Source: an uncultured Peptococcaceae bacterium (GTDB taxonomy: Bacteria; Bacillota; Peptococcia; Peptococcales; Peptococcaceae). Taken from it: a stretch of DNA of 64,000 nucleotides. The notes beneath the pieces were generated by a model. The model made no database searches. It was not told where the DNA came from and saw nothing but the letters and a program-made list of their open reading frames with translations. Location of the stretch: assembly GCA_949743265.1 (NCBI GenBank), contig CATJSX010000033.1, forward strand, positions 1 through 64,000, read 5' to 3'. This document shows positions 635 to 55,785 of this stretch, in pieces. Each line of letters starts with the position of its first letter. Positions within the stretch are counted from its first letter, which is position 1. Position numbers and translations under genes: made by a program.

Positions 635-1344
635 TCAATGATCTTTTAACGTTTCTATTTCTTTTTCTAAAAGCCGTCTATCCAAAATTGTAATATTGCT
701 TTTCGTTCTATGAATGATGTCTAAACGTTTTAAATCATTAAGGAATGTAACCACGTTATTCGGATGAATATCATTAAAATGGGCAATATCTTTATAAGAT
801 GGCGGATTGTCAATAACGATAGTGTGAGGATTATTGGGTTTTGCTTCACCAAAGCGAGATGCTAAATAATGTAAATATACATAAGTTTTCAAACGTGCCG
901 ATTGATTGATCGTTTCATAGCGAGGCAAATCATTGAAATTACGCCGATAATAGGGCTCGTAAATTTGATGCAAAATTCGTTCTGGCGATTGTGCAAGGAA
1001 AGTCAAATATTCAGACAACGATGCATAAAAAATTTCCGTTTCCGTATTGGCAACCGAGTATTTACCTAATAATGAAATTCCCGGTGTAGAAATTATGACA
1101 GAATACTCTGGAATAAATCCGTTAAAAATCTCATTCCCATCAGCATTAAGCGTATATAACTTAAGATAACCTTTATGCAGATACGATACCAACCGACTTT
1201 CCGGCGGCATTCTATCAATAATTTCATTTTTGGCATAAATCTTTTTGGCAATATATCGTGTCAGAAAAATTCTTCAAATTCTTGATGATACAAATTAAAT
1301 GTCTTGAAATGACTAAAAATATTATCGTTTCCAATATCACTCAT
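635..1344 (-). pseudogene. Crp/Fnr-family regulator, frameshifted (Crp1)
   Basis: Transcription factor of the Crp/Fnr family. The downstream frame (635 to about 1260) holds the end of a cyclic-nucleotide-binding-like barrel and a C-terminal helix-turn-helix (around YKDIAHFNDIHPNNVVTFL). The natural start appears to be the ATG at 1344, preceded by a GGAAAGGAA ribosome site. That frame runs 27 codons to a TGA at 1261-1263. One extra T in the five-base run at 1264-1268 would fuse the two frames into a protein of about 236 aa, the usual Crp length. The heptamer is not a canonical -1 slippery site, so mutation or a homopolymer undercall is more likely than programmed frameshifting. It diverges from PDE1 and may control it through the palindrome at 1514-1527. 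The family assignment is firm; the functional state is unknown. Confidence 0.75.
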
Positions 1345-1513
1345 GAATAATCATTCCTTTCCCGCAACATTTTTTATTTAAAATTGCTCCCTAAAAGTAT
1401 AGCCTTCTTTTGTTTAAGCGTCAATCGACAGCTGAAAAATCGTCATACTCATTTATTTGAACTTATACTTGCGAACGAATAAATGATAATATAAACAACA
1501 AAAATTTATATTT

Positions 1514-1555
1514 TTCGTAAATACGAATATATACCAAAAAATAAAATGATATGAT
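1514..1555 (+). promoter_or_regulatory. Candidate Crp/Fnr-class promoter of PDE1
   Basis: The palindrome TTCGT-AAAT-ACGAA (1514-1527) has the 5-4-5 geometry of Crp/Fnr operators. A -10-like TATGAT lies at 1550-1555 with no good -35. With +1 set at 1562, the palindrome centre falls at -41.5, the classic class II activator position. The regulator gene next door is of the right family. The start site is inferred. Confidence 0.55.
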
Positions 1556-1676: not shown

Positions 1677-3755
1677 ATGTCCGCTAACAATAAGGTTTTG
1701 ATTTTGGGTTTGGATGGTATGGAGCCAGATACTACACGCAGATTGGTTGACGCAGGCAAAATGCCAAATACCAAAAAATTGATCGAAAGAGGAGCAGCCA
1801 GAAAAGATCTTGAATTGCTGGGCGCAATGCCGACGATTACGCCAGCGCAATGGACTACATTGGCGTGCGGTTGCTATCCCGCCACACACGGTGTAACAGA
1901 TTTCTGGAATCAAGCACCTGACGCTATTGACACTATTATTTACGGCTTAGATTCCAGATTATGTCAAGCAGAACAATTGTGGAATGTCACAGCTGCCAGC
2001 GGTAAAAAAACTTTAGTTTGGCAATGGCCCGGCTCATCATGGCCGCCAAGCAGTGATAGCGACAATCTTTTGGTCGTCGACGGTACGCAGCCTGCCAGCG
2101 TTAATTACAGCATCGCCAATATTGATATTGAAAAATACGCCGTTGCGTCTAAAGATTTTACCGAAAATCGTTTTATTGACCATATCGGCTCTAAAAATTT
2201 GGGAGACGCCGCTGCTGATTGCGTCATTGATAAACTGGACTTGGAAGAAACTCCAGAAGAAAATACAAATAAATACGATGATTTTAAATTTAATGAAGAT
2301 AATAAACAAGAATTTTTGCTCAACCGTTATAAAATGAAACGAATCAAAAATGTTGACTTTCATCCTATCACTAACGACGGCGGCAAATTGGCAAAAGTTC
2401 CCTTTGATAAAATCGAAAGCGTTATTACCACACCAAACAACTGGACTTTTGCGCTACCTGAAGGCGCTTTGGAATTTGCCATTTATACAGCAGGCGGACA
2501 ATTAAAACGCCCTTGCTTAATAACCCAAAATACGCAAGGAATTTATGATACGGTCGTCATTTATCGAAGCAAAAAAGAATCTGAACCACTTTGTACATTA
2601 CAAGGCGATAAAATTGCTACCGATGTGCTCGATGATTGTTTAGATAACGGCAAAAAAACACTGGCAACTCGCTGGTATAAATTATTAGAACTTGCCGAAG
2701 ACGGTTCAAAAGTTAGATTATGGATGAGTACCGCTTTTAAGGTTGACTGCGATGATCGTTGGTCACCAAAATCTATCTATCGAGAAGTTATCGAAAATTG
2801 CGGTTACGTGCCGCCGTTTACACAAATGGGCGGAACCAGTTTGGAATTTGCGCAAAAGATTTTGACGCCGAGTTGGCGGCTTAATGCCTTGTGGCAATCA
2901 AGAGCTATCAATTATTTGATTAAAGAAAAGGATCTTGATGTCGTTTTCTGCCATCATCATTTTATTGATCACTCTGCTCATCAATTTTGGAATTATGCCC
3001 TGCAAAAACCGAATGCCGATCCTGCCGAAGGCTTCCAAGCGCAGATTGATAAAACATATGAAGTAGCTGATGAATACATTGGTTCTTTCATGCATCTGTT
3101 AGACGAAGGCTGGACGATCATTGTAACTTCTGACCATGGCGAACAGATTCATGATAAAGCCGTGGCTCGTCTAGGCAGTGCCGGCGGCGTTAGTGCTGGC
3201 ATTATGAAAGAATTGGGCTGGACAGTAATGAAAAAAGATGAAAACGGCAATGACACAACTGAACTTGATCTTGAAAAAACTAAAGCCGTTGCTATTAGAA
3301 CCAGTTATATCTGGATCAATTTGAAAGGCAGAGATGCTCATGGTATTGTTGACCCCAAAGATAAATACGATGTAGAAGAAGCCATTATCGACGATCTGTA
3401 TCGTTATCGCGATGCCAACGGCGACAGAATTATCGCTATGGCATTTCATAATCGCGATGCGAAAATCATCGGTTTAGACGGACCTTATACTGGCGATATT
3501 ATTTACATGAATCGTGAACGCCATGTTACTGAACATGGGCAAGGGTTATCTACTTATCGTGGCTATTATGATACTAGCGTATCGCCAATTTTTATCGCCG
3601 CCGGTCAAGGCATTATCTCTGATGCAGCAGTACAACGAACCATTCGTCAAGTTGACATTGCGCCGACAGTCGCGGCATTATTAGGCGTTAGAATGCCCAA
3701 AAACTGCGAAGGCGCACCAGTATATCAAATTATGGAGCAGTATCAACAAGATTAA
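1677..3755 (+). CDS. Alkaline-phosphatase-superfamily phosphodiesterase, paralogue 1 (PDE1)
   Basis: Predicted metal-dependent phosphodiesterase/phosphonate-ester hydrolase of the type I phosphodiesterase/nucleotide pyrophosphatase family, 692 aa. Visible two-metal-site residues: Asp13 (LGLDGMEP), nucleophile Thr55 (TITPAQW, aligned with the TFPN threonine of NPP enzymes), Asp431/His435 (DHSAH), Asp486-His487 (TSDHGE) and His620 (TEHGQG). There is no signal peptide or membrane segment, so it should act in the cytosol. A beta-rich block near residues 225-330 (PEGALEF...) is shared by all five paralogues. The start is taken at 1677 because GGGAGG lies 8 nt upstream; the frame is open from 1551, but that lies upstream of the predicted transcription start. 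The lid segment reads LGSAGGVS where the other copies have LGDPxG, so this copy is the outlier. Carrier T1 follows. The substrate is unknown. Confidence 0.85.
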   Translation: MSANNKVLILGLDGMEPDTTRRLVDAGKMPNTKKLIERGAARKDLELLGAMPTITPAQWTTLACGCYPATHGVTDFWNQAPDAIDTIIYGLDSRLCQAEQLWNVTAASGKKTLVWQWPGSSWPPSSDSDNLLVVDGTQPASVNYSIANIDIEKYAVASKDFTENRFIDHIGSKNLGDAAADCVIDKLDLEETPEENTNKYDDFKFNEDNKQEFLLNRYKMKRIKNVDFHPITNDGGKLAKVPFDKIESVITTPNNWTFALPEGALEFAIYTAGGQLKRPCLITQNTQGIYDTVVIYRSKKESEPLCTLQGDKIATDVLDDCLDNGKKTLATRWYKLLELAEDGSKVRLWMSTAFKVDCDDRWSPKSIYREVIENCGYVPPFTQMGGTSLEFAQKILTPSWRLNALWQSRAINYLIKEKDLDVVFCHHHFIDHSAHQFWNYALQKPNADPAEGFQAQIDKTYEVADEYIGSFMHLLDEGWTIIVTSDHGEQIHDKAVARLGSAGGVSAGIMKELGWTVMKKDENGNDTTELDLEKTKAVAIRTSYIWINLKGRDAHGIVDPKDKYDVEEAIIDDLYRYRDANGDRIIAMAFHNRDAKIIGLDGPYTGDIIYMNRERHVTEHGQGLSTYRGYYDTSVSPIFIAAGQGIISDAAVQRTIRQVDIAPTVAALLGVRMPKNCEGAPVYQIMEQYQQD

Positions 3756-21059: not shown

Positions 21060-21788
21060 TCACTTCCGTTCACTTTTTCCGCCGCAACCGACGGCAATTT
21101 CCGCTTTTAATTGTTCGAAATCAACTATAATCATTCTTTTTCCTTCCTTTCTAATAATGCCTTGTTCTTGCAGTTCACTAAGACATTTAATCACATTTCT
21201 TTTACGAATACCGGTAAATCGAGCAATATCCACTCTTGACGGAAATTTCTTGAGGATAACGGCTCCGTCGCTCGTAAAAAGCGTACTTTGTTCCGCCAAA
21301 GCCGCAATAAACTTGCAGATGCGTCCTTTTAACGAACAACTGGCAAGATCCAACAAATTGGCTTCAATAGCCGCCATCTGCTGAGAAATCATATGCAGCA
21401 TTTTTGTAAAACTATCTTTATCCTCACAAATATGCGTCATCAACGAAAAAAATCCTACAAAACAGACTTTGCAGTCTACACCCGCTTCTAAACGCAAATA
21501 AACCTGCTCCTCCTCATGATGATTTGCCAAACAAGAACAACCTTCCACCACATAATAAAGTAATTTTTCCGCACCAAAATCATTGCAAATAAAAACCTTC
21601 AGAGCGCCCTGCAAAACATATACTACTGCTATTTGCGCAAAATCGACAAGGATTAACTCATTCTTTCGATAACTCTTTTCAAAAAAAGCCAGAGAACGCA
21701 TCATCTGATCTTTTTGACAACGACTTTCTTTAGTCAAAGTATTATCGCATAAGTATAACACATCCACTATCTTCCGCTCCTTCTTCAT
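21060..21788 (-). CDS. Crp/Fnr-family regulator (Crp2)
   Basis: 242 aa with an N-terminal effector barrel and a C-terminal helix-turn-helix (SRVDIARFTGIRKRNVIKCLSEL). Several Cys residues (positions about 14, 24, 63, 85, 108, 110) are present, but they do not match the FNR [4Fe-4S] pattern. It lies just past PDE2 and its terminator on the same strand. The 14-bp palindrome upstream of PDE2 is a plausible target. Its own ribosome site is weak; an AGGTGGTAA stretch upstream of its start matches a half of that palindrome, hinting at autoregulation. Confidence 0.8.
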   Translation of the reverse strand: MKKERKIVDVLYLCDNTLTKESRCQKDQMMRSLAFFEKSYRKNELILVDFAQIAVVYVLQGALKVFICNDFGAEKLLYYVVEGCSCLANHHEEEQVYLRLEAGVDCKVCFVGFFSLMTHICEDKDSFTKMLHMISQQMAAIEANLLDLASCSLKGRICKFIAALAEQSTLFTSDGAVILKKFPSRVDIARFTGIRKRNVIKCLSELQEQGIIRKEGKRMIIVDFEQLKAEIAVGCGGKSERK

Positions 21789-21923
21789 TTATCAATCTAT
21801 TACCACCTAAAAATCAAAGAAACATCACTATGCTATTATCATTTTACTATTCTACTCCATTTACAAGTTATACCATTCACCAGCACTTCTACGATTCTAA
21901 ATAAAACTCATTATATCATAAAT

Positions 21924-21961
21924 AAAAACGTCTGTGCAGCACATTCCGCACAGACGTTTTT
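21924..21961 (-). terminator. Terminator of PDE2
   Basis: AAAAACGTCTGTGC stem with its complement and T-run, directly after the PDE2 stop. Symmetric flanks. Confidence 0.85.
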
Positions 21962-21966
21962 ATTTT

Positions 21967-23994
21967 TTAATCCAAATCTAAAATTTGATAAACTGGCGCA
22001 CCTTCGCATTGCGCTGGCATACGAACATTACCAATAACAGCCAATGTTGGCGCTACATCTACCTGACGAATAACACGATCAGTTTTGAAATTATGTTTAA
22101 CGCCTTTGCCCGCAATCAAGAAAATAGGCGATTCAGAGGTATCGGTTAAGCCCATATAAGTCGACAAACTATCACCATGGACACGGTTAAAGCCTTCTTC
22201 TAAGAAATAAATAATATCGCCGCAGCCTTCACCTTTTAACCCCAAAAGCGCCGCATCTTGGCTTCTTAATGCCAACGCTACACAACGCTTGCCATTGTAT
22301 TTGTAATTATACAAATCGCTGATAATGCGTCGTTCCAATTCATATTGATCTTCTGGTTCAACGATCCCCGTTTCATATTTGCCTTTGAGATTGATATAAA
22401 TATGATTTCCTCTGGGCGCAACGGCTGTTGTTTTACTCCAATCAATTTCGCGAATCGGCTCACCCTTTTCATCAGTTTTCATCACGGTATAGCCCATTTC
22501 CATCATAGCTTTAATATTAACGCCAAAAGGATCGCCCAATGCTGGCGGCATATCTTCTTCAGCATTGACTAACCCATGGTCGCTGGTCACAACAATAGTC
22601 CAGCCTTTATCCAGCAAATGGACAAATTGACCAATATAATCATCAGTATCAACATAAGCTCGCTCCATAACTTCCAAAAATTCTGCCGGATCATTATCAA
22701 ATTCTTCACGATAAGCGCAACGTTCCCAATAAACATGACCATAACAGTCAATATTATGAAAATGACTAAAAACAACTTCATAATCGTGATTTTCGATCAA
22801 ATAATTGATGCAATCCGCTTGCCATTGACCATAAATATGCCATAAAGGTGCGGTAATTTTTTCAGCTATCCACGGTAAAGCGCCAACTGTCAAGCAAACA
22901 GAAGGAATTTCTCCCAAATGTTCTCTTAATTCATGATACAAACTCTTAGGATGGAATAAATCATCACAGCCAATTTTGTTAGCATTGCCAACATAAAGCA
23001 TGACTTCACTGCCATCTGGCTCCAGATTGAGCAAAACATATTGACGACTGCACAAAGTTGGCTCATCTTTGCTGATAACTGTGTCAATAATGCCGCTGTG
23101 TACTTCATAATCATCTAAAACAACTAGCGGCTCAGCAGCTTTTTTGTTTTTGTAGATTTCTACACGATCATAAATGCCGTCCTTATTCTTTAAAACTAAC
23201 GCCGTACGACGTTCTTTACCATAGCTGACAGGAATATAAAATTCTTTGGCACCTTCAGGCGCATTAAGCCAGCCTTTTGCCGGACGCAATGGAATAACGC
23301 TTTCTCTTGATTTGCCTAGCCGTTCAGAGCCCGCTTTTTCACCTTCATGCTCACTCATAAGCATACAATACAATTCATTTTGCCCCATGGTATCCATGGC
23401 ATTGCCGCGCTTACCTTCGTTTTCATCAGCCAATTCCACATCAGCAATGATGCAGCCAGCGCCGTTGCCATCTAATTCAGCATCTTGAATTTCTTCGTCC
23501 TGACAGTCTTCTCTGGCTGCCCAAACCGCTTCCCATTCCAAAGAGCCTACAACCAAATTAACATTCGTTGGCTGTGTTCCTTCTACAACTGCCAAATTGG
23601 GACTATCAGAAGTTGGCGGCCAAGATGAACCGGGCCAGTGCCAAACAAGCGTCTTTTTGCCTGCTTCTGCAAAAACATTCCATAATTGTTCTGCACGACA
23701 GTTACGAGAATCCAAAGAATATACCAATGTATCCAATTTGGTAGGATGCTGATTCCAGAAACAAGTAATTCCATGAGTGCCAGGATAAGCTCCTGTTGCC
23801 AATGTTGTCCATTGCGGCGGTGTGATTGTAGGCAATGCGCCTAACATCACCAAATCTTCTCTGGCAGAGCCGTGTTCTAACAATTTTTTAACATTAGGCA
23901 TTTTGCCTTCATCTAAAAATTTCTTCGTCAAACGTGGATCCATCCCGTCGACGCCGACAACGATAATTTTGCCTTTTGGATCGCCTTTAATCAT
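21967..23994 (-). CDS. Alkaline-phosphatase-superfamily phosphodiesterase, paralogue 2 (PDE2)
   Basis: 675 aa member of the same family as PDE1. Metal and catalytic residues: Asp16 (VGVDGMDP), Thr58 (TITPPQW), D-x-x-x-H in HNIDCYGH, Asp-His in VTSDHGL and the C-terminal HG in RVHGDSLS. It keeps the LGDPFGVN lid segment and the beta-rich insertion (PEGAKEFYIP ... RVEIYKNKKAAEP). No signal peptide. GAGGAG precedes the ATG. Unlike the others it has no neighbouring carrier, so it must rely on an import route encoded elsewhere or act on an internal metabolite. Its promoter carries a Crp/Fnr-like site. Confidence 0.85.
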   Translation of the reverse strand: MIKGDPKGKIIVVGVDGMDPRLTKKFLDEGKMPNVKKLLEHGSAREDLVMLGALPTITPPQWTTLATGAYPGTHGITCFWNQHPTKLDTLVYSLDSRNCRAEQLWNVFAEAGKKTLVWHWPGSSWPPTSDSPNLAVVEGTQPTNVNLVVGSLEWEAVWAAREDCQDEEIQDAELDGNGAGCIIADVELADENEGKRGNAMDTMGQNELYCMLMSEHEGEKAGSERLGKSRESVIPLRPAKGWLNAPEGAKEFYIPVSYGKERRTALVLKNKDGIYDRVEIYKNKKAAEPLVVLDDYEVHSGIIDTVISKDEPTLCSRQYVLLNLEPDGSEVMLYVGNANKIGCDDLFHPKSLYHELREHLGEIPSVCLTVGALPWIAEKITAPLWHIYGQWQADCINYLIENHDYEVVFSHFHNIDCYGHVYWERCAYREEFDNDPAEFLEVMERAYVDTDDYIGQFVHLLDKGWTIVVTSDHGLVNAEEDMPPALGDPFGVNIKAMMEMGYTVMKTDEKGEPIREIDWSKTTAVAPRGNHIYINLKGKYETGIVEPEDQYELERRIISDLYNYKYNGKRCVALALRSQDAALLGLKGEGCGDIIYFLEEGFNRVHGDSLSTYMGLTDTSESPIFLIAGKGVKHNFKTDRVIRQVDVAPTLAVIGNVRMPAQCEGAPVYQILDLD

Positions 23995-24026
23995 GATTAG
24001 CTCTCCTCACTTTATATGATATATTA

Positions 24027-24068
24027 ATTATAAAACATTTAGTGCCGCTGCTAGGTGGTAAATGCCAC
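24027..24068 (-). promoter_or_regulatory. Candidate Crp/Fnr-class promoter of PDE2
   Basis: Palindrome GTGGT-AAAT-GCCAC at 24055-24068 and a minus-strand TATAAT at 24027-24032, with no -35 match. With +1 at 24020 the palindrome centre is at -41.5, the same geometry and the same AAAT spacer as at PDE1. The start site is inferred. Confidence 0.55.
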
Positions 24069-24184
24069 TTTTTATAAAAAATATTGATTTAATAACTTTG
24101 ATAAAACAAGGAAAATTTTAAACTACACTTCAGGCAAAAGGCAAAATCATCTTTTATTGAAATAAAGCTAAATTTATCCGTTCT

Positions 24185-33931: not shown

Positions 33932-35920
33932 ATGACAAAAGCAAAAAGAGTAATGGTATTAGGTTTTGATGGAGGGGATCCCGTTTTTGCAGAAAAACTC
34001 ATCGCCGAAGGAAAACTACCTAACTTCAAAAAAGTAAAAGAAATGGGCGTTACCACAAAAATGAAAGGTATGATTGGAGCGTTACCAACTATAACACCAC
34101 CTTGCTGGGCAACTTTGGCAACTGGTGCTTGGCCGGGTACTCACGGTATTACTTGTTTCTGGAATCATACCATCGGAAAAAGTTTTGATGAATTGGATAT
34201 GGGCTGGAACTCACAACAATGTGAAGCAGAGTTTATTTGGGATGCTTTTTCTAAAGCGGGCAAAAAAACGATTTTGTTCAACTACCCAACATCTTTTCCG
34301 CCAACCACTTATGAAAATGTTTATCAAGTAGATGGCACATCTGCTCAACCATATAATCAAAATTTCCCTGATTACGATAAATATATTAAAGCAAACGAAA
34401 GTTATCAGGAAATTGTCTCCAAATTCCATAATCCTAATGATACAGGCGCTGGTTGTGTCATGACTGAAGAAGTGGAACATAAAAAATTTGAAATCGTAGA
34501 AAATGATCATGAAAGATCATTCACAGATTTATTTGCAGGTGGCGCTGTAAACGAAGGAAGCACTGTAGCCAATGAAGCAGAATGGTTATCTCTAATCGAC
34601 GATACTGAAACACCAATCAAACCAGCAAAAGGTTGGAATGATGTTCCCGAAGGAACCAAAGAATTTTCTATCCCATTTGCCGGAGGATTATTAAGAAGAA
34701 TTGCTTTATTAATCCCTGATGCTGATGGAAAATATAGAAAAGTAAAATTGTATAAGAAGAAAAATGGTGACTTTTTAGGCGAAGCAACTATAGGACAAAA
34801 TTTCAGCGAATGGATTTATGACACGACTTATGATCAAAGAAATGCAGAAGTTGAAGTTGCCTATAAAATGAAATTATATGAATTAGAAGAAGATGGTAGC
34901 AATGCCGTTCTTTATATTACAAAATCTTGTCAGTTAAAGTGCAATCCAAAATATTTCGTACCACAATCATTAGGACAAGAATTATTAGATAAGATCGGGC
35001 CTATTGTTGCTGGCTCTGATATTGGTCGTCCACATGCTGAAGTCGGTTGCGATGCTTGGCATGAACACTACAAATGGTGTGCTGATGCTATTAACTATTT
35101 ACTTGACAATAAAGAATGGGATTTATTCTACAGCCATTTACATTCTCTCGATGTTGCTAATCATAATATGATTACAGATATCGTACCCGGTAGCCCAAGA
35201 TATGAAAAGTTCTATAACTTAATGGTGCAATATTATATCAATGCTGATGAAGTCGTAGGAAAATTATTAAGACACTTAGATGATGGCGAAACAGCCTTAT
35301 TTATTGTATCCGACCATGCAGGCGTTCCACGTCATCCGGGATACAAATGGCCTATGTTAGGTGATCCGTGGGGAATTGTTACCGACTTTATGAAAGATTT
35401 AGGCTATGTAAAAACATATAAAGATGAAAACGGACATTCTCAAATTGATTGGAGTCAAACCAAAGCAGTTTGTCAAAGAACAGGCTATATTTATGTTAAC
35501 TTAAAAGGTCGCGATCCATATGGTATTGTAGAACCGGAAGAATATGAAGATTTGTGCCGTCAAATTCAAGACGATTTCTATAATTACCGTGATCCTGAAA
35601 CAGGAGAACGTGTCATTGAAATGATTGTTGGTCATGATGGCATGGAAGCGCTAGGTTTATATGGCGATCATGTCGGTGATCTCTACTATGTATTCACACC
35701 TAATTACTGCCGTGACCATGGAAACTCCTTCAGTAACTTGGAACACTACGGTTTCTCTATGAAGTGTTTATTCTTTGCTGCTGGTGCAGGAATCAAAAAG
35801 AATACCGTTATGGAACGTCGTGTTCGCCAAGTCGATATTGTTCCAACCATTTGTGAAATGACAGATAGTCCTGTGCCTAACAAATGTGAAGGTGGCATTA
35901 TTTATCAATTATTTGAATAA
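33932..35920 (+). CDS. Alkaline-phosphatase-superfamily phosphodiesterase, paralogue 3 (PDE3)
   Basis: 662 aa. Catalytic set: Asp13 (LGFDGGDP; others have DGMD/DGLD), Thr55 (TITPPCW), D-x-x-x-H in HSLDVANH, Asp-His in VSDHAGV (others SDHG/SDHA-Q) and His in CRDHGNS. The lid segment LGDPWGIV is present. Around the C-terminal motif it reads NSFSNLEHYG rather than DSLST...G, and it is the most divergent copy after PDE1. No signal peptide. AGGAGG precedes the ATG. Forms an operon with T3; LysR2 follows after a terminator. Confidence 0.85.
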   Translation: MTKAKRVMVLGFDGGDPVFAEKLIAEGKLPNFKKVKEMGVTTKMKGMIGALPTITPPCWATLATGAWPGTHGITCFWNHTIGKSFDELDMGWNSQQCEAEFIWDAFSKAGKKTILFNYPTSFPPTTYENVYQVDGTSAQPYNQNFPDYDKYIKANESYQEIVSKFHNPNDTGAGCVMTEEVEHKKFEIVENDHERSFTDLFAGGAVNEGSTVANEAEWLSLIDDTETPIKPAKGWNDVPEGTKEFSIPFAGGLLRRIALLIPDADGKYRKVKLYKKKNGDFLGEATIGQNFSEWIYDTTYDQRNAEVEVAYKMKLYELEEDGSNAVLYITKSCQLKCNPKYFVPQSLGQELLDKIGPIVAGSDIGRPHAEVGCDAWHEHYKWCADAINYLLDNKEWDLFYSHLHSLDVANHNMITDIVPGSPRYEKFYNLMVQYYINADEVVGKLLRHLDDGETALFIVSDHAGVPRHPGYKWPMLGDPWGIVTDFMKDLGYVKTYKDENGHSQIDWSQTKAVCQRTGYIYVNLKGRDPYGIVEPEEYEDLCRQIQDDFYNYRDPETGERVIEMIVGHDGMEALGLYGDHVGDLYYVFTPNYCRDHGNSFSNLEHYGFSMKCLFFAAGAGIKKNTVMERRVRQVDIVPTICEMTDSPVPNKCEGGIIYQLFE

Positions 35921-47092: not shown

Positions 47093-49135
47093 TTACAATT
47101 CTTCATCTAAAATTTGATATATGGGCGCTCCTTCACATTGCGCTGGAAATCTTACGCCTGCCAAAACGGCCACCGTAGGCGCTAAATCAATCTGTCTGAT
47201 CCAACGTTCTGTCGTATAACCCTCTTTAATACCTTTACCTGCGGCAATAAAGATAGGCGACAAACTGGTTTCGCAATCACCATAAGCTGTAGCTAAACCA
47301 TCAGCATGGTCAATATTATATCCTTCAGCAATCCAGTAACAAATATCGCCACATTCTGGTCCGCCATAGCCTAAAAGAACAGCGTCTTTATTGCGTAATG
47401 CCAAGGCAACGACACGTTTTCCTGTTTTTTTATCTTTATAGCCATATAAATCAGTCATAATTTGTTCTTCTAATTCATATTTATCCGCTGGTTCAACGCA
47501 GCCATGAGGATTTCTACCTTTCAAATTGATATAAATATTACATTCTCTATTAGCAACAGCTTTTGTTTTTTCCCAATCAATTTCCCGCAACTGCTTGCCA
47601 TTTTCATCAACTTTCAAAACAGTATAACCCAGTTCTTGCATAACGCCAACATTAACGCCTTGTGGATCACCGAGCATTGGTGGACGATGAGCTGGACAAA
47701 CTTGTGCATGGTCAGAAGTAATAATAATAGTCCAACCATCATCTAAATAATGTAAAAAACTACCCAAATATCTATCAATCTGTAAATAAATATCATCCAT
47801 AAATTTCTGATACTGCTCTTCATCTTTAGCACCAAATTCTATATCATAGTCCTTATCGCCTTTGGTCATAAAGCGTATAAATCTATGCTCTTGCATATCA
47901 ATGCTGTGACAATGAGAAAAAACAGCCTGTACGCCTTTTTGATCAATCAAATAATGAATGGCAGCACTTTGCCAATCAACAACGATATTCCAATTGTCCA
48001 ACATACAATCGGTAACAATTTTGGAATCATGATTGCCAACATAAGAACTTGGCGCAATATAACCGACATTTTCGGCAATATCATAGAAAATATTGCTTGG
48101 TGAAAAAATATAATCAGCATGCATATCTGTAGCACTAGAAATATATATCTCCAAGTGATTGCCATCTTTGGCAAGAGATAGCAATTTCATATTGTAATTG
48201 GCATCTTTATATTCCCCGTCACCAACAACCGCTTGCTCATGAATTTGAGATTTAATTTTGCCTTCTTCCAATATGGCAAAAGGTTCTGCTGTTTTTTTAT
48301 TTTTATAAAGGACAACACGCTCATAAATGCCTTGTTCATTTGGTAAAACTAAGCCGCAACGACGAATTAAACCTTTTGATAATAATAGTGTAAATTCTTT
48401 TGCGCCTTCTGGCACAGTAATTGCCCAATTTTTCGGTTCCGTTATGGGTGATAATGCTACTGAAAGCAAATCTGGTGCGCAAGCAGCATTTAATCCATCT
48501 AAAAAATCAATGATCATATTGGTTTTTTCACGTACATCTTTAACAAGATCGGAAGAAGACGGTTTCGCAATGCAATCTTCCGGTTTAACAATGCACGCTT
48601 TATCCAAATCAGCTGTTGCGGAAGGAGCAAAAGCGGCACTCTCAATTTTTACATCAGCCACTACCATAAATTCATCAGCAACTGTCGCCGCACCCATACC
48701 TAATCCTCCGGGCGTAGAGCCGTCGCAAACAATTAAATTTTCACTGTCACTGGTTGGCGGCCAAGAATTTCCCGGCCAATGGAATACTGCCGTCTTAATG
48801 CCAGCTTCTGCAAAAATATTCCAAATAGGTTCTGCTTTGCAATTATGCGAATCAAAATTGCCAATAATTTTATCTAAATCACTGCCCTGACGATTATAAC
48901 CAGTAATACCATGAACGTTAGCATAACAGCCCGTCGACAGCGTAGTCCACATTGGTGGTGTAACAGTAGGATGTCCTCCCAGCATAACCAAGTCTTCACG
49001 ACAAGCGCCTCTATCAATATATTTTTGTAAGTTAGGCATTTTCCCTTCACGCAACATTTTTTTGCTGTATCTTGGATCTAAACCATCTACCCCCAATACT
49101 AAAATTTTGTCATTATAACCTGACGTTCTTTTCAT
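47093..49135 (-). CDS. Alkaline-phosphatase-superfamily phosphodiesterase, paralogue 4 (PDE4)
   Basis: 680 aa. Asp17 (LGVDGLDP), Thr59 (TVTPPMW), D-x-x-x-H in HSIDMQEH, Asp-His in ITSDHAQ, and the C-terminal His in NIDHADGLAT (HA rather than HG). Lid segment LGDPQGVN and the beta-rich insertion (PEGAKEFTLLLSKGLIRRCGL) present. Most like PDE5. AGGAGAG precedes the ATG. Follows T4 by 117 nt and precedes the amidohydrolase-fold gene on the same strand. Confidence 0.85.
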   Translation of the reverse strand: MKRTSGYNDKILVLGVDGLDPRYSKKMLREGKMPNLQKYIDRGACREDLVMLGGHPTVTPPMWTTLSTGCYANVHGITGYNRQGSDLDKIIGNFDSHNCKAEPIWNIFAEAGIKTAVFHWPGNSWPPTSDSENLIVCDGSTPGGLGMGAATVADEFMVVADVKIESAAFAPSATADLDKACIVKPEDCIAKPSSSDLVKDVREKTNMIIDFLDGLNAACAPDLLSVALSPITEPKNWAITVPEGAKEFTLLLSKGLIRRCGLVLPNEQGIYERVVLYKNKKTAEPFAILEEGKIKSQIHEQAVVGDGEYKDANYNMKLLSLAKDGNHLEIYISSATDMHADYIFSPSNIFYDIAENVGYIAPSSYVGNHDSKIVTDCMLDNWNIVVDWQSAAIHYLIDQKGVQAVFSHCHSIDMQEHRFIRFMTKGDKDYDIEFGAKDEEQYQKFMDDIYLQIDRYLGSFLHYLDDGWTIIITSDHAQVCPAHRPPMLGDPQGVNVGVMQELGYTVLKVDENGKQLREIDWEKTKAVANRECNIYINLKGRNPHGCVEPADKYELEEQIMTDLYGYKDKKTGKRVVALALRNKDAVLLGYGGPECGDICYWIAEGYNIDHADGLATAYGDCETSLSPIFIAAGKGIKEGYTTERWIRQIDLAPTVAVLAGVRFPAQCEGAPIYQILDEEL

Positions 49136-53772: not shown

Positions 53773-55785
53773 CTAATATTGTTCCGAAAAAATTTGATAA
53801 ACTGGCGCACCTTCACATTCTCTAGGCATTCTGACACCGCCCAAAGCCGCTACTGTCGGAGCAACATCAACTTCACGAATAATGCGAGTCGTTAAAAAAT
53901 TTTCTTTAATCCCACAGCCAGCCGCTATAAAAATTGGCGAAACAGAGGTTTCAGCATAACCTTGTGTAGTTGATAAAGAATCGCCATGATCCATATTATA
54001 GCCTTCTGCTGTCCAGTAAATAATATCGCCGCATTCTGAACCGCCTAATCCTAATAAAACGGCATCACGGTTACGCAAAGCACAAGCAATAACACGTTTA
54101 TTAGTTGTTTCATCACGATAGCTGTATAATGCTGTCATAATTTCTTCTTCCAACTCATATTGTTCTTCTAATGGAACAATACCTCGCCCGTGGTTGCGAT
54201 TGACGAGATTTAAGTAAATCTGATTAGCTCTAGTCGCCACCGCCTTTGTTTTACTCCAATCAATTTCATGCATTTCTTCGCCATTTTCATCATACTTGAG
54301 CACAGTATAGCCTAATTTTTGCAGTACACGAACATTAACGCCATTAGGATCGCCTAATAAATGATGTTCATGCTCTGGACAAACTTGCCCATGATCACTC
54401 ACCAAAAGAATCGTCCAATTTTTATCCAACAAATGTAGAAACTCTCCAATATAATCATCTGCCTGCTGATAAACAAAATCAAATAATTCAATATATTCTG
54501 CTTCTGTTAATTTTTGCCCCGGCAGATTCTTTTCTTTTAAATATTTCACAATCATATGACCTTGCAAATCAACACTATGATAATGTGAAAATACCACATC
54601 AATCTTTTCATGTTCAATTAAATAATTGATACTATCTGCTTGCCACTTACCAATAGCCCACCAGTTAGCCCCTGTACAATCTTTAATCAATTTCTTATCG
54701 GAACCACCCATAAAAGAAAAGGGATGAGGATAACCCACATTTTGCGTAATTTCTTGATATAAACGTTTAGGCGACCATAAATCATCATTATTAAGATCTA
54801 CAGCAGGAGAAACCCATAACTTTAATTGCGTACCGTCTTGGGCTAATTCCAATAAACGCATATTGCGAAAAGCTGGCGTCAATTTATCATCCACTTGCGC
54901 ATCATCAAAAACGTACGGCGTAAATTGATCTTTCTCTAAAACAACAATAGGTTCCATTGCTTTTTTATTTTTATATAATGCAATACGGTCATATTCTCCT
55001 CGTCCATTGCGCAAAATCAATCCTACTCTGCGCAATAATCCTTGTGACAGCAAAAGAGTAAATTCCTTTGCGTCTTCTGGAACATTTATCCAACCTTCAG
55101 CCGTTTTAATTGGTGATAAAACTACATCAACCGGCAATACTGAAACAACGCCTTCGCCTTCTTCAGCAGAAAGCATTACTTTTTTCTGATGTCCCATAGC
55201 TTGACTGGTATCCAACTGCAAATCACTCGTAGATAAATCATTAACCACACAAGGAATATTACTATCAGAAGCAGCTCGTTCTTTAAAAATCGGATATTCT
55301 ATATTTTCATCAGCCAAAAATAAAAATTCACCATCAACACGAGCCAGACCATTAACGCAAGGCGGGTTAGTTCCATCAACAACGAATAAATTCTCATTGT
55401 CGGAAGTTGGCGGCCAAGAAGACCCCGGCCAATGAAATACCAATGTTTTTTTACCAGCTTCTGCAAATACATTCCAAAGTTGTTCTGCTTTACATTTTCG
55501 AGAATCAAAATTATATTCTACCCACTCCAATCCTTTATCGGATTGTCGATTATAGCAAGTGATTCCATGAGTAACTGGATGAGCACCTGTTGATAAAGTC
55601 GTCCACATTGGCGGGGTAATAGTTGGATGAGAGCCGAGCATCATTAAATCTTCACGATATGCCCCTCTATCCATCAATTTTTTCGTATTGGGCATTTTGC
55701 CCATAGCAAGAAGTTTTTTCGTATAGCGCGGATCCATTCCATCAATTCCCAATACTAAAATTTTTTCTGTCATTGGCTTGTTCAT
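53773..55785 (-). CDS. Alkaline-phosphatase-superfamily phosphodiesterase, paralogue 5 (PDE5)
   Basis: 670 aa with the full catalytic set: Asp15 (LGIDGMDP), Thr57 (TITPPMW), D-x-x-x-H in HSVDLQGH, Asp464-His465 (VSDHGQ) and the C-terminal His in MDHGDSLST. Lid segment LGDPNGVN; beta-rich insertion around PEDAKEFTLLLSQG and RIALYKNKKAMEP. This copy has every consensus motif and is a good reference for the group. No signal peptide. AAGGAGG precedes the ATG. First gene of the PDE5-T5 pair. Confidence 0.87.
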   Translation of the reverse strand: MNKPMTEKILVLGIDGMDPRYTKKLLAMGKMPNTKKLMDRGAYREDLMMLGSHPTITPPMWTTLSTGAHPVTHGITCYNRQSDKGLEWVEYNFDSRKCKAEQLWNVFAEAGKKTLVFHWPGSSWPPTSDNENLFVVDGTNPPCVNGLARVDGEFLFLADENIEYPIFKERAASDSNIPCVVNDLSTSDLQLDTSQAMGHQKKVMLSAEEGEGVVSVLPVDVVLSPIKTAEGWINVPEDAKEFTLLLSQGLLRRVGLILRNGRGEYDRIALYKNKKAMEPIVVLEKDQFTPYVFDDAQVDDKLTPAFRNMRLLELAQDGTQLKLWVSPAVDLNNDDLWSPKRLYQEITQNVGYPHPFSFMGGSDKKLIKDCTGANWWAIGKWQADSINYLIEHEKIDVVFSHYHSVDLQGHMIVKYLKEKNLPGQKLTEAEYIELFDFVYQQADDYIGEFLHLLDKNWTILLVSDHGQVCPEHEHHLLGDPNGVNVRVLQKLGYTVLKYDENGEEMHEIDWSKTKAVATRANQIYLNLVNRNHGRGIVPLEEQYELEEEIMTALYSYRDETTNKRVIACALRNRDAVLLGLGGSECGDIIYWTAEGYNMDHGDSLSTTQGYAETSVSPIFIAAGCGIKENFLTTRIIREVDVAPTVAALGGVRMPRECEGAPVYQIFSEQY

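Follow-up and report, generated by a model that had tools for sequence, protein, structure and literature searches.

Probable operator and promoter of PDE2

The 64,000-nucleotide stretch analysed here (the window) contains a palindrome upstream of the hydrolase gene PDE2 that is quite probably the operator of CRP2, a nearby Crp/Fnr-family regulator that would serve as a CprK-like, cAMP-independent class II activator dedicated to PDE2. The sequence features behind this assignment are the site itself, its spacing to the -10 hexamer, the absence of a -35 hexamer, the recurrence of the site, with its spacing and a linked regulator, in a distantly related genome (G012), and a further copy of the site at a transporter promoter there.

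PDE2 (21967-23994, minus strand), the presumed regulated gene, encodes a 675-aa AlkP-superfamily type I phosphodiesterase-like hydrolase (PF01663, E 5.1e-31). The 14-mer GTGGTAAATGCCAC (GTGGT-AAAT-GCCAC on the plus strand, 24055-24068) reads GTGGCATTTACCAC in the coding direction of PDE2, and in this orientation it forms a putative CRP/FNR-type operator, GTGGC-ATTT-ACCAC, with 5+5 arms, one mismatch and the consensus GTGGC-N4-GCCAC. A perfect TATAAT (24027-24032, minus strand) lies 22 bp from the operator edge and is followed by the ribosome-binding site GAGGAG (24003-24008, minus strand) and the PDE2 ATG at 23994. From the position of the -10 hexamer, the +1 of PDE2 is predicted at 24020 (minus strand), seven bases after TATAAT, which places the operator centre (24061.5) at -41.5. 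In the place of a -35, 17 bp upstream of TATAAT, stands CCTAGC, which matches TTGACA at one of six positions, and a promoter consensus scan found no sigma-70 -35 paired with the PDE2 TATAAT (24032-24027). The anatomy put forward in the original prediction, a palindrome centred at -41.5 of a predicted start that has no -35, is thus what the sequence and the promoter scan show. An A/T-rich, TTTTTTATAAAAA-like stretch beside the operator (24070-24085, minus strand) may serve as an alpha-CTD/UP contact region.

Conservation of the site at the orthologous locus

In G012, the promoter of the PDE2 orthologue (77% identical) carries GTGGCAAATGCCAC at 21 bp from TAAAAT, and a transporter gene two genes from PDE2 carries GTGGCAAGTGCCAC at its promoter, exactly 22 bp from TATAAT, the same gap as at the window promoter. 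A CRP-family gene lies between the PDE2 orthologue and the transporter gene, divergent from PDE2, and a LysR gene stands beside the transporter gene. All three GTGGC promoters lack a -35, and apart from A/T-rich stretches they otherwise have little sequence in common; in each of them a TTTATAAAA-like stretch precedes the operator. By length (about 14-16 bp) and predicted position (-41.5), the window site and those at the two G012 promoters would be classed as class II dyads.

The GTGGC footprint comprises two genomes and three promoters. Of 150 promoter regions collected from PDE and transporter genes, three contain GTGGY-N4-RCCAC, namely those of the window PDE2, the G012 PDE2 and the G012 transporter, and searching 13 family genomes with GTGGYANNTRCCAC yielded 13 sites, these three promoters and ten positions inside ORFs. 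With the motif-defining site left out, the chance that the other two sites would both coincide with the pair of promoters at the sister regulator's locus is about 1/11,000 (hypergeometric). No further PDE2 orthologues with a CRP gene were found; the homologues of 55-68% identity are LysR-linked or have no nearby regulator, and one of them (57%, L021) has no GTGG site and is adjoined by a LysR gene.

In the tree, CRP2 has the G012 regulator as its sister (support 97/94), at only 32% identity. In the assembly, the G012 orthologue of CRP2 is frameshifted or split at a GGGGGGGG (G8) tract (L059:4890-4910), through an assembly error or possibly as a phase-variable switch in the regulator.

A site overlapping the -35 region would also fit a CRP2 that binds there and represses PDE2 by blocking RNA polymerase, as some CRP/FNR proteins do repress. 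Such repression is nevertheless unlikely, since without a -35 at any of the GTGGC promoters there would be hardly any basal activity to repress, and the distance to the -10 stays within 21-22 bp, as for class II activators; the TGTTG-class promoters described below have their TATAAT 20-21 bp away.

The regulator CRP2

Near PDE2, the original prediction had placed a Crp-family gene at 21060-21788 (minus strand), and this is a real ORF with an HTH_Crp_2 domain (PF13545, E 1e-10), whose start is likely the GTG at 21767 rather than 21788. CRP2 follows PDE2 on the same strand, some 2.3 kb downstream of the operator, and has PDE and YabG as its neighbours. The AlphaFold model, of moderate confidence (pLDDT 70), comprises a beta-roll, a long helix (124-144) and a winged helix-turn-helix, and its best structural matches in the PDB are CprK, which ranks first, and CRP folds. 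The N-terminal beta-roll, long dimerisation helix and C-terminal Crp-type winged helix place CRP2 in the CRP/FNR superfamily. A cNMP_binding Pfam match is lacking at E <= 0.001, so CRP2 does not classify as a cAMP-responsive CRP, and its best NCBIfam match, the CRP equivalog, scores 43 bits against a cut-off of 266. Nor does it classify as FNR, an Fe-S oxygen sensor with the site TTGAT-N4-ATCAA, the score for that family being 21.6 bits against a cut-off of 228.

Between PDE2 and the CRP2 gene lies a terminator-like hairpin, ACGTCTGTGC / GCACAGACGT (21925-21962, minus strand), with a T-rich tail and a 10-nt loop that, exceeding the limit of 8 in our terminator scan, excluded it from that scan. 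CRP2 has its own promoter, TGCACA-17-TATAAT with an extended -10 (TGaTATAAT; 21938-21910, minus strand), which is the best-scoring promoter-like site of the region and overlaps this hairpin 3' of PDE2; CRP2 is therefore probably not simply co-transcribed with PDE2. The CRP2 gene has no full operator site of its own. A half-site, TAGGTGGTAA, is found upstream of the CRP2 start (21800-21809, minus strand); its ten bases are identical to the operator flank and arm on the plus strand (24052-24061), and it is a possible weak feedback site or a chance match.

Other CRP-linked promoters in the family

At 100 loci that contain PDE, transporter or CRP genes, we searched the promoters for a perfect 5-N4-5 dyad together with a -10 at class II distance. 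This combination is present at 7 of 24 CRP-linked PDE or transporter promoters (shuffles predict 0.12) and at 3 of the 125 other promoters (0.96 predicted). One of the latter three is the promoter of a PDE at C32 of genome G000, with TGTTGTCCGCAACA, and a regulator gene of the cognate class is located at C118 of the same genome. This TGTTG-N4-CAACA class is found in G004 (PDE and transporter), G010 (transporter) and G000 (the PDE at C32 and, as TGTTCTCCACAACA, a transporter at C118), and its promoters have A-rich upstream flanks.

Two variants were observed beside these classes. In another relative, in G012 (C57), two TGTTG-N6-CAACA dyads (16 bp), with the arms of the TGTTG-N4-CAACA class and a spacer two bases longer, lie between CRP and PDE genes (L064:6250-6370). 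Another CRP class, with helices such as HTVSISR and HAVSVSR, is encoded beside ATAAC-N4-GTTAT-type dyads at transporter promoters (L067, L071, L080 and L087), and at L071 and L087 TATTAT stands exactly at class II distance from the dyad.

Covariation of recognition helices and operator arms

The site at PDE1 used for comparison, TTCGT-AAAT-ACGAA (1514-1527, plus strand), has a TATGAT and the same -41.5 geometry. Its sequence, TTCGTANNTACGAA, has no orthologous footprint, and none of its four other matches, in three genomes, is at a PDE promoter. The PDE1-side regulator, CRP1, is frameshifted (1210-1345, minus strand): the reading frame that opens with the ATG at 1344 ends close to a T5 run (about 1268), with the rest of the domain encoded in a different frame, reflecting an assembly error or a decayed gene.

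The regulators at PDE loci form one nine-member clade (97/93), and no further members were found in the class, where the next matches are much weaker. Within the clade, the three TGTTG regulators are sisters (100/100), and CRP1 sits elsewhere on a long branch. At CRP positions 179-185 the recognition helices read RKRNVIK in CRP2, HKSNVIK in the G012 regulator, HRSNVTR in the three TGTTG proteins and HPNNVVT in CRP1. Positions 180, 184 and 185 track the arms (K180/I184/K185 with GTGGC, R180/T184/R185 with TGTTG, P180/V184/T185 with TTCGT), and positions 179 and 181 differ between the two GTGGC-class regulators. Since each of the three classes has a different helix, helix and arms covary across GTGGC, TGTTG and TTCGT, as judged from sequence correspondence.

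The check for such covariation in orthologues came out as proposed, HKSNVIK of G012 keeping GTGGC and HRSNVTR going with TGTTG. Of the earlier suggestion that PDE1 and PDE2 are controlled by two sister regulators with diverged helices, the part on helices stands, the arms being kept in the G012 pair and different with the three HRSNVTR regulators, and the sisterhood does not: CRP1 and CRP2 are 26% identical, and with CRP1 on its long branch and the G012 protein as the sister of CRP2, they are divergent clade members. The AAAT spacer, thought to be shared by both sites, is AAAT at PDE1 and ATTT at PDE2 when each is read in gene direction. As a signature the spacer was rejected as incidental, since the family uses many different spacers (AAAT, AAGT, CAGG, TGTG, TACG, TCCG).

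A published superfamily correlation pairs R180 with G3 and E181 with A6, and Ser or Pro at 180 with T3 (PMC1274295). CRP2 fits this rule, having K180 with G3 kept and having lost both E181 and A6, as does CRP1, with P180 and T3 and with E181 and A6 likewise lost. The TGTTG class does not follow the simple R180-G3 rule.

Hydrolase paralogues and their regulators

Genome G000, that of the window, encodes 78 full-length PDE paralogues (PF01663, phosphonoacetate-hydrolase-like, cytoplasmic) in 3.04 Mb, and the copies in the window lie at 1677-3755, 21967-23994, 33941-35920, 47093-49135 and 53773-55785. Among 46 genomes sampled from the class, high copy numbers are confined to this family, and we found no papers in the literature on an expansion of this hydrolase family. 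Within 2.5 kb of the 78 paralogues, a LysR gene is present at 47 and a CitMHS/DASS-like transporter at 43; PDE2 is one of only two, the other being the window's PDE1, with a CRP gene nearby.

With LysR genes this frequent, and one beside the transporter gene in G012, the palindrome could be the operator of another regulator, for example of the LysR or GntR type, with the CRP gene in the vicinity by accident; GTGG/CCAC dyads do resemble other operators too. We regard this as quite improbable, since PDE2 in the window has no LysR gene within 2.5 kb, the CRP gene is the one common to both GTGGC loci, LysR-linked PDE promoters lack class II palindromes of this kind, and CRP relatives elsewhere have different palindromes in the corresponding position.

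Taken by itself, the sequence of the palindrome is just mildly unusual: GTGG-N6-CCAC occurs once in the window, where shuffling predicts 0.12, at least one copy appears in 12 of 100 shuffled windows, and the motif is not enriched genome-wide (8 matches against 15 for the reversed control). The sequence alone is therefore weak evidence, and it is the position and the conservation in a relative that make it significant. These frequencies would suit a functionless chance palindrome near a -10, which is nonetheless scarcely credible given identical arms at the orthologous G012 promoter and at a second promoter there, with the same spacing and nowhere else among the 150 regions. A genome-wide regulon of the GTGG motif was considered and rejected, the other matches being inside ORFs and no commoner than the reversed control.

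Discussion

For CRP2 as a class II activator of PDE2, we propose that the CRP2 dimer is switched on by a small ligand that is not cAMP and that probably belongs to the PDE2 pathway, as substrate or product; the dimer would then bind GTGGC-N4-GCCAC centred at -41.5 and contact RNA polymerase in place of the missing -35, turning PDE2 on. That CRP2 binds this site, that it activates rather than represses, and the nature of its ligand are what we infer from the sequence.

One of the closest known arrangements is that of CprK/RdhK and the dehalobox in Desulfitobacterium and Dehalobacter, which has the same CRP/FNR fold and a 5-N4-5 palindrome, TTAAT-acac-ATTAA, at -41.5; the DB7 site of CprK has this form and position (PMC7062800). 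In both systems each catabolic cluster has its own regulator, a genome contains many paralogous enzymes, and the arms differ between paralogous regulators. In contrast to CprK/RdhK, the targets here are AlkP-superfamily hydrolases and CitMHS/DASS-type transporters rather than reductive dehalogenases, the arms are GTGGC instead of TTAAT, and CRP2 is only about 18-20% identical to CprK. An assignment of CRP2 as CprK/RdhK itself was rejected, there being no dehalogenase among the neighbours, neither in the window (PDE and YabG) nor in G012 (PDE and transporter), and no TTAAT-type arms. By analogy, CRP2 most likely works like CprK at its dehalobox, as a ligand-gated class II activator.

The HcpR, DNR and NnrR group offers a comparative-genomics precedent in which CRP positions 180/181 change together with motif bases 3/6 (Rodionov et al. 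2005, PMC1274295), but these proteins control nitrogen-oxide genes and have the arms TTGAC, GTAAC or TGTGA, not GTGGC. With the class II promoters of E. coli CRP and FNR, the PDE2 promoter has in common the regulator fold, a dyad site and the -41.5 geometry without a -35. Unlike E. coli CRP, CRP2 has no cNMP-binding Pfam match, has K180, R181 and K185 in place of R180, E181 and R185, and would have a single-locus target instead of a global regulon.

The PDE expansion is more unusual than the operator, and the proposed CRP2 operator is an ordinary type of bacterial switch within an unusually large enzyme family. We give roughly even odds to a wider reading, in which a Peptococcaceae-like family with up to 78 copies of an AlkP-superfamily hydrolase per genome has undergone a lineage-specific radiation of insulated regulator-operator pairs. 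A nine-member CprK-like CRP/FNR clade would control a few hydrolase/transporter modules, its helices and arms (GTGGC, TGTTG and TTCGT) having diverged together such that cross-talk is avoided, and most other modules would be associated with LysR regulators. The three regulator/arm classes form a small natural data set for reading CRP/FNR DNA specificity beyond R180-G3 and E181-A6. For one module, a regulator, an operator and a target are now predicted, and the ligand of CRP2 could reveal the substrate of PDE2.
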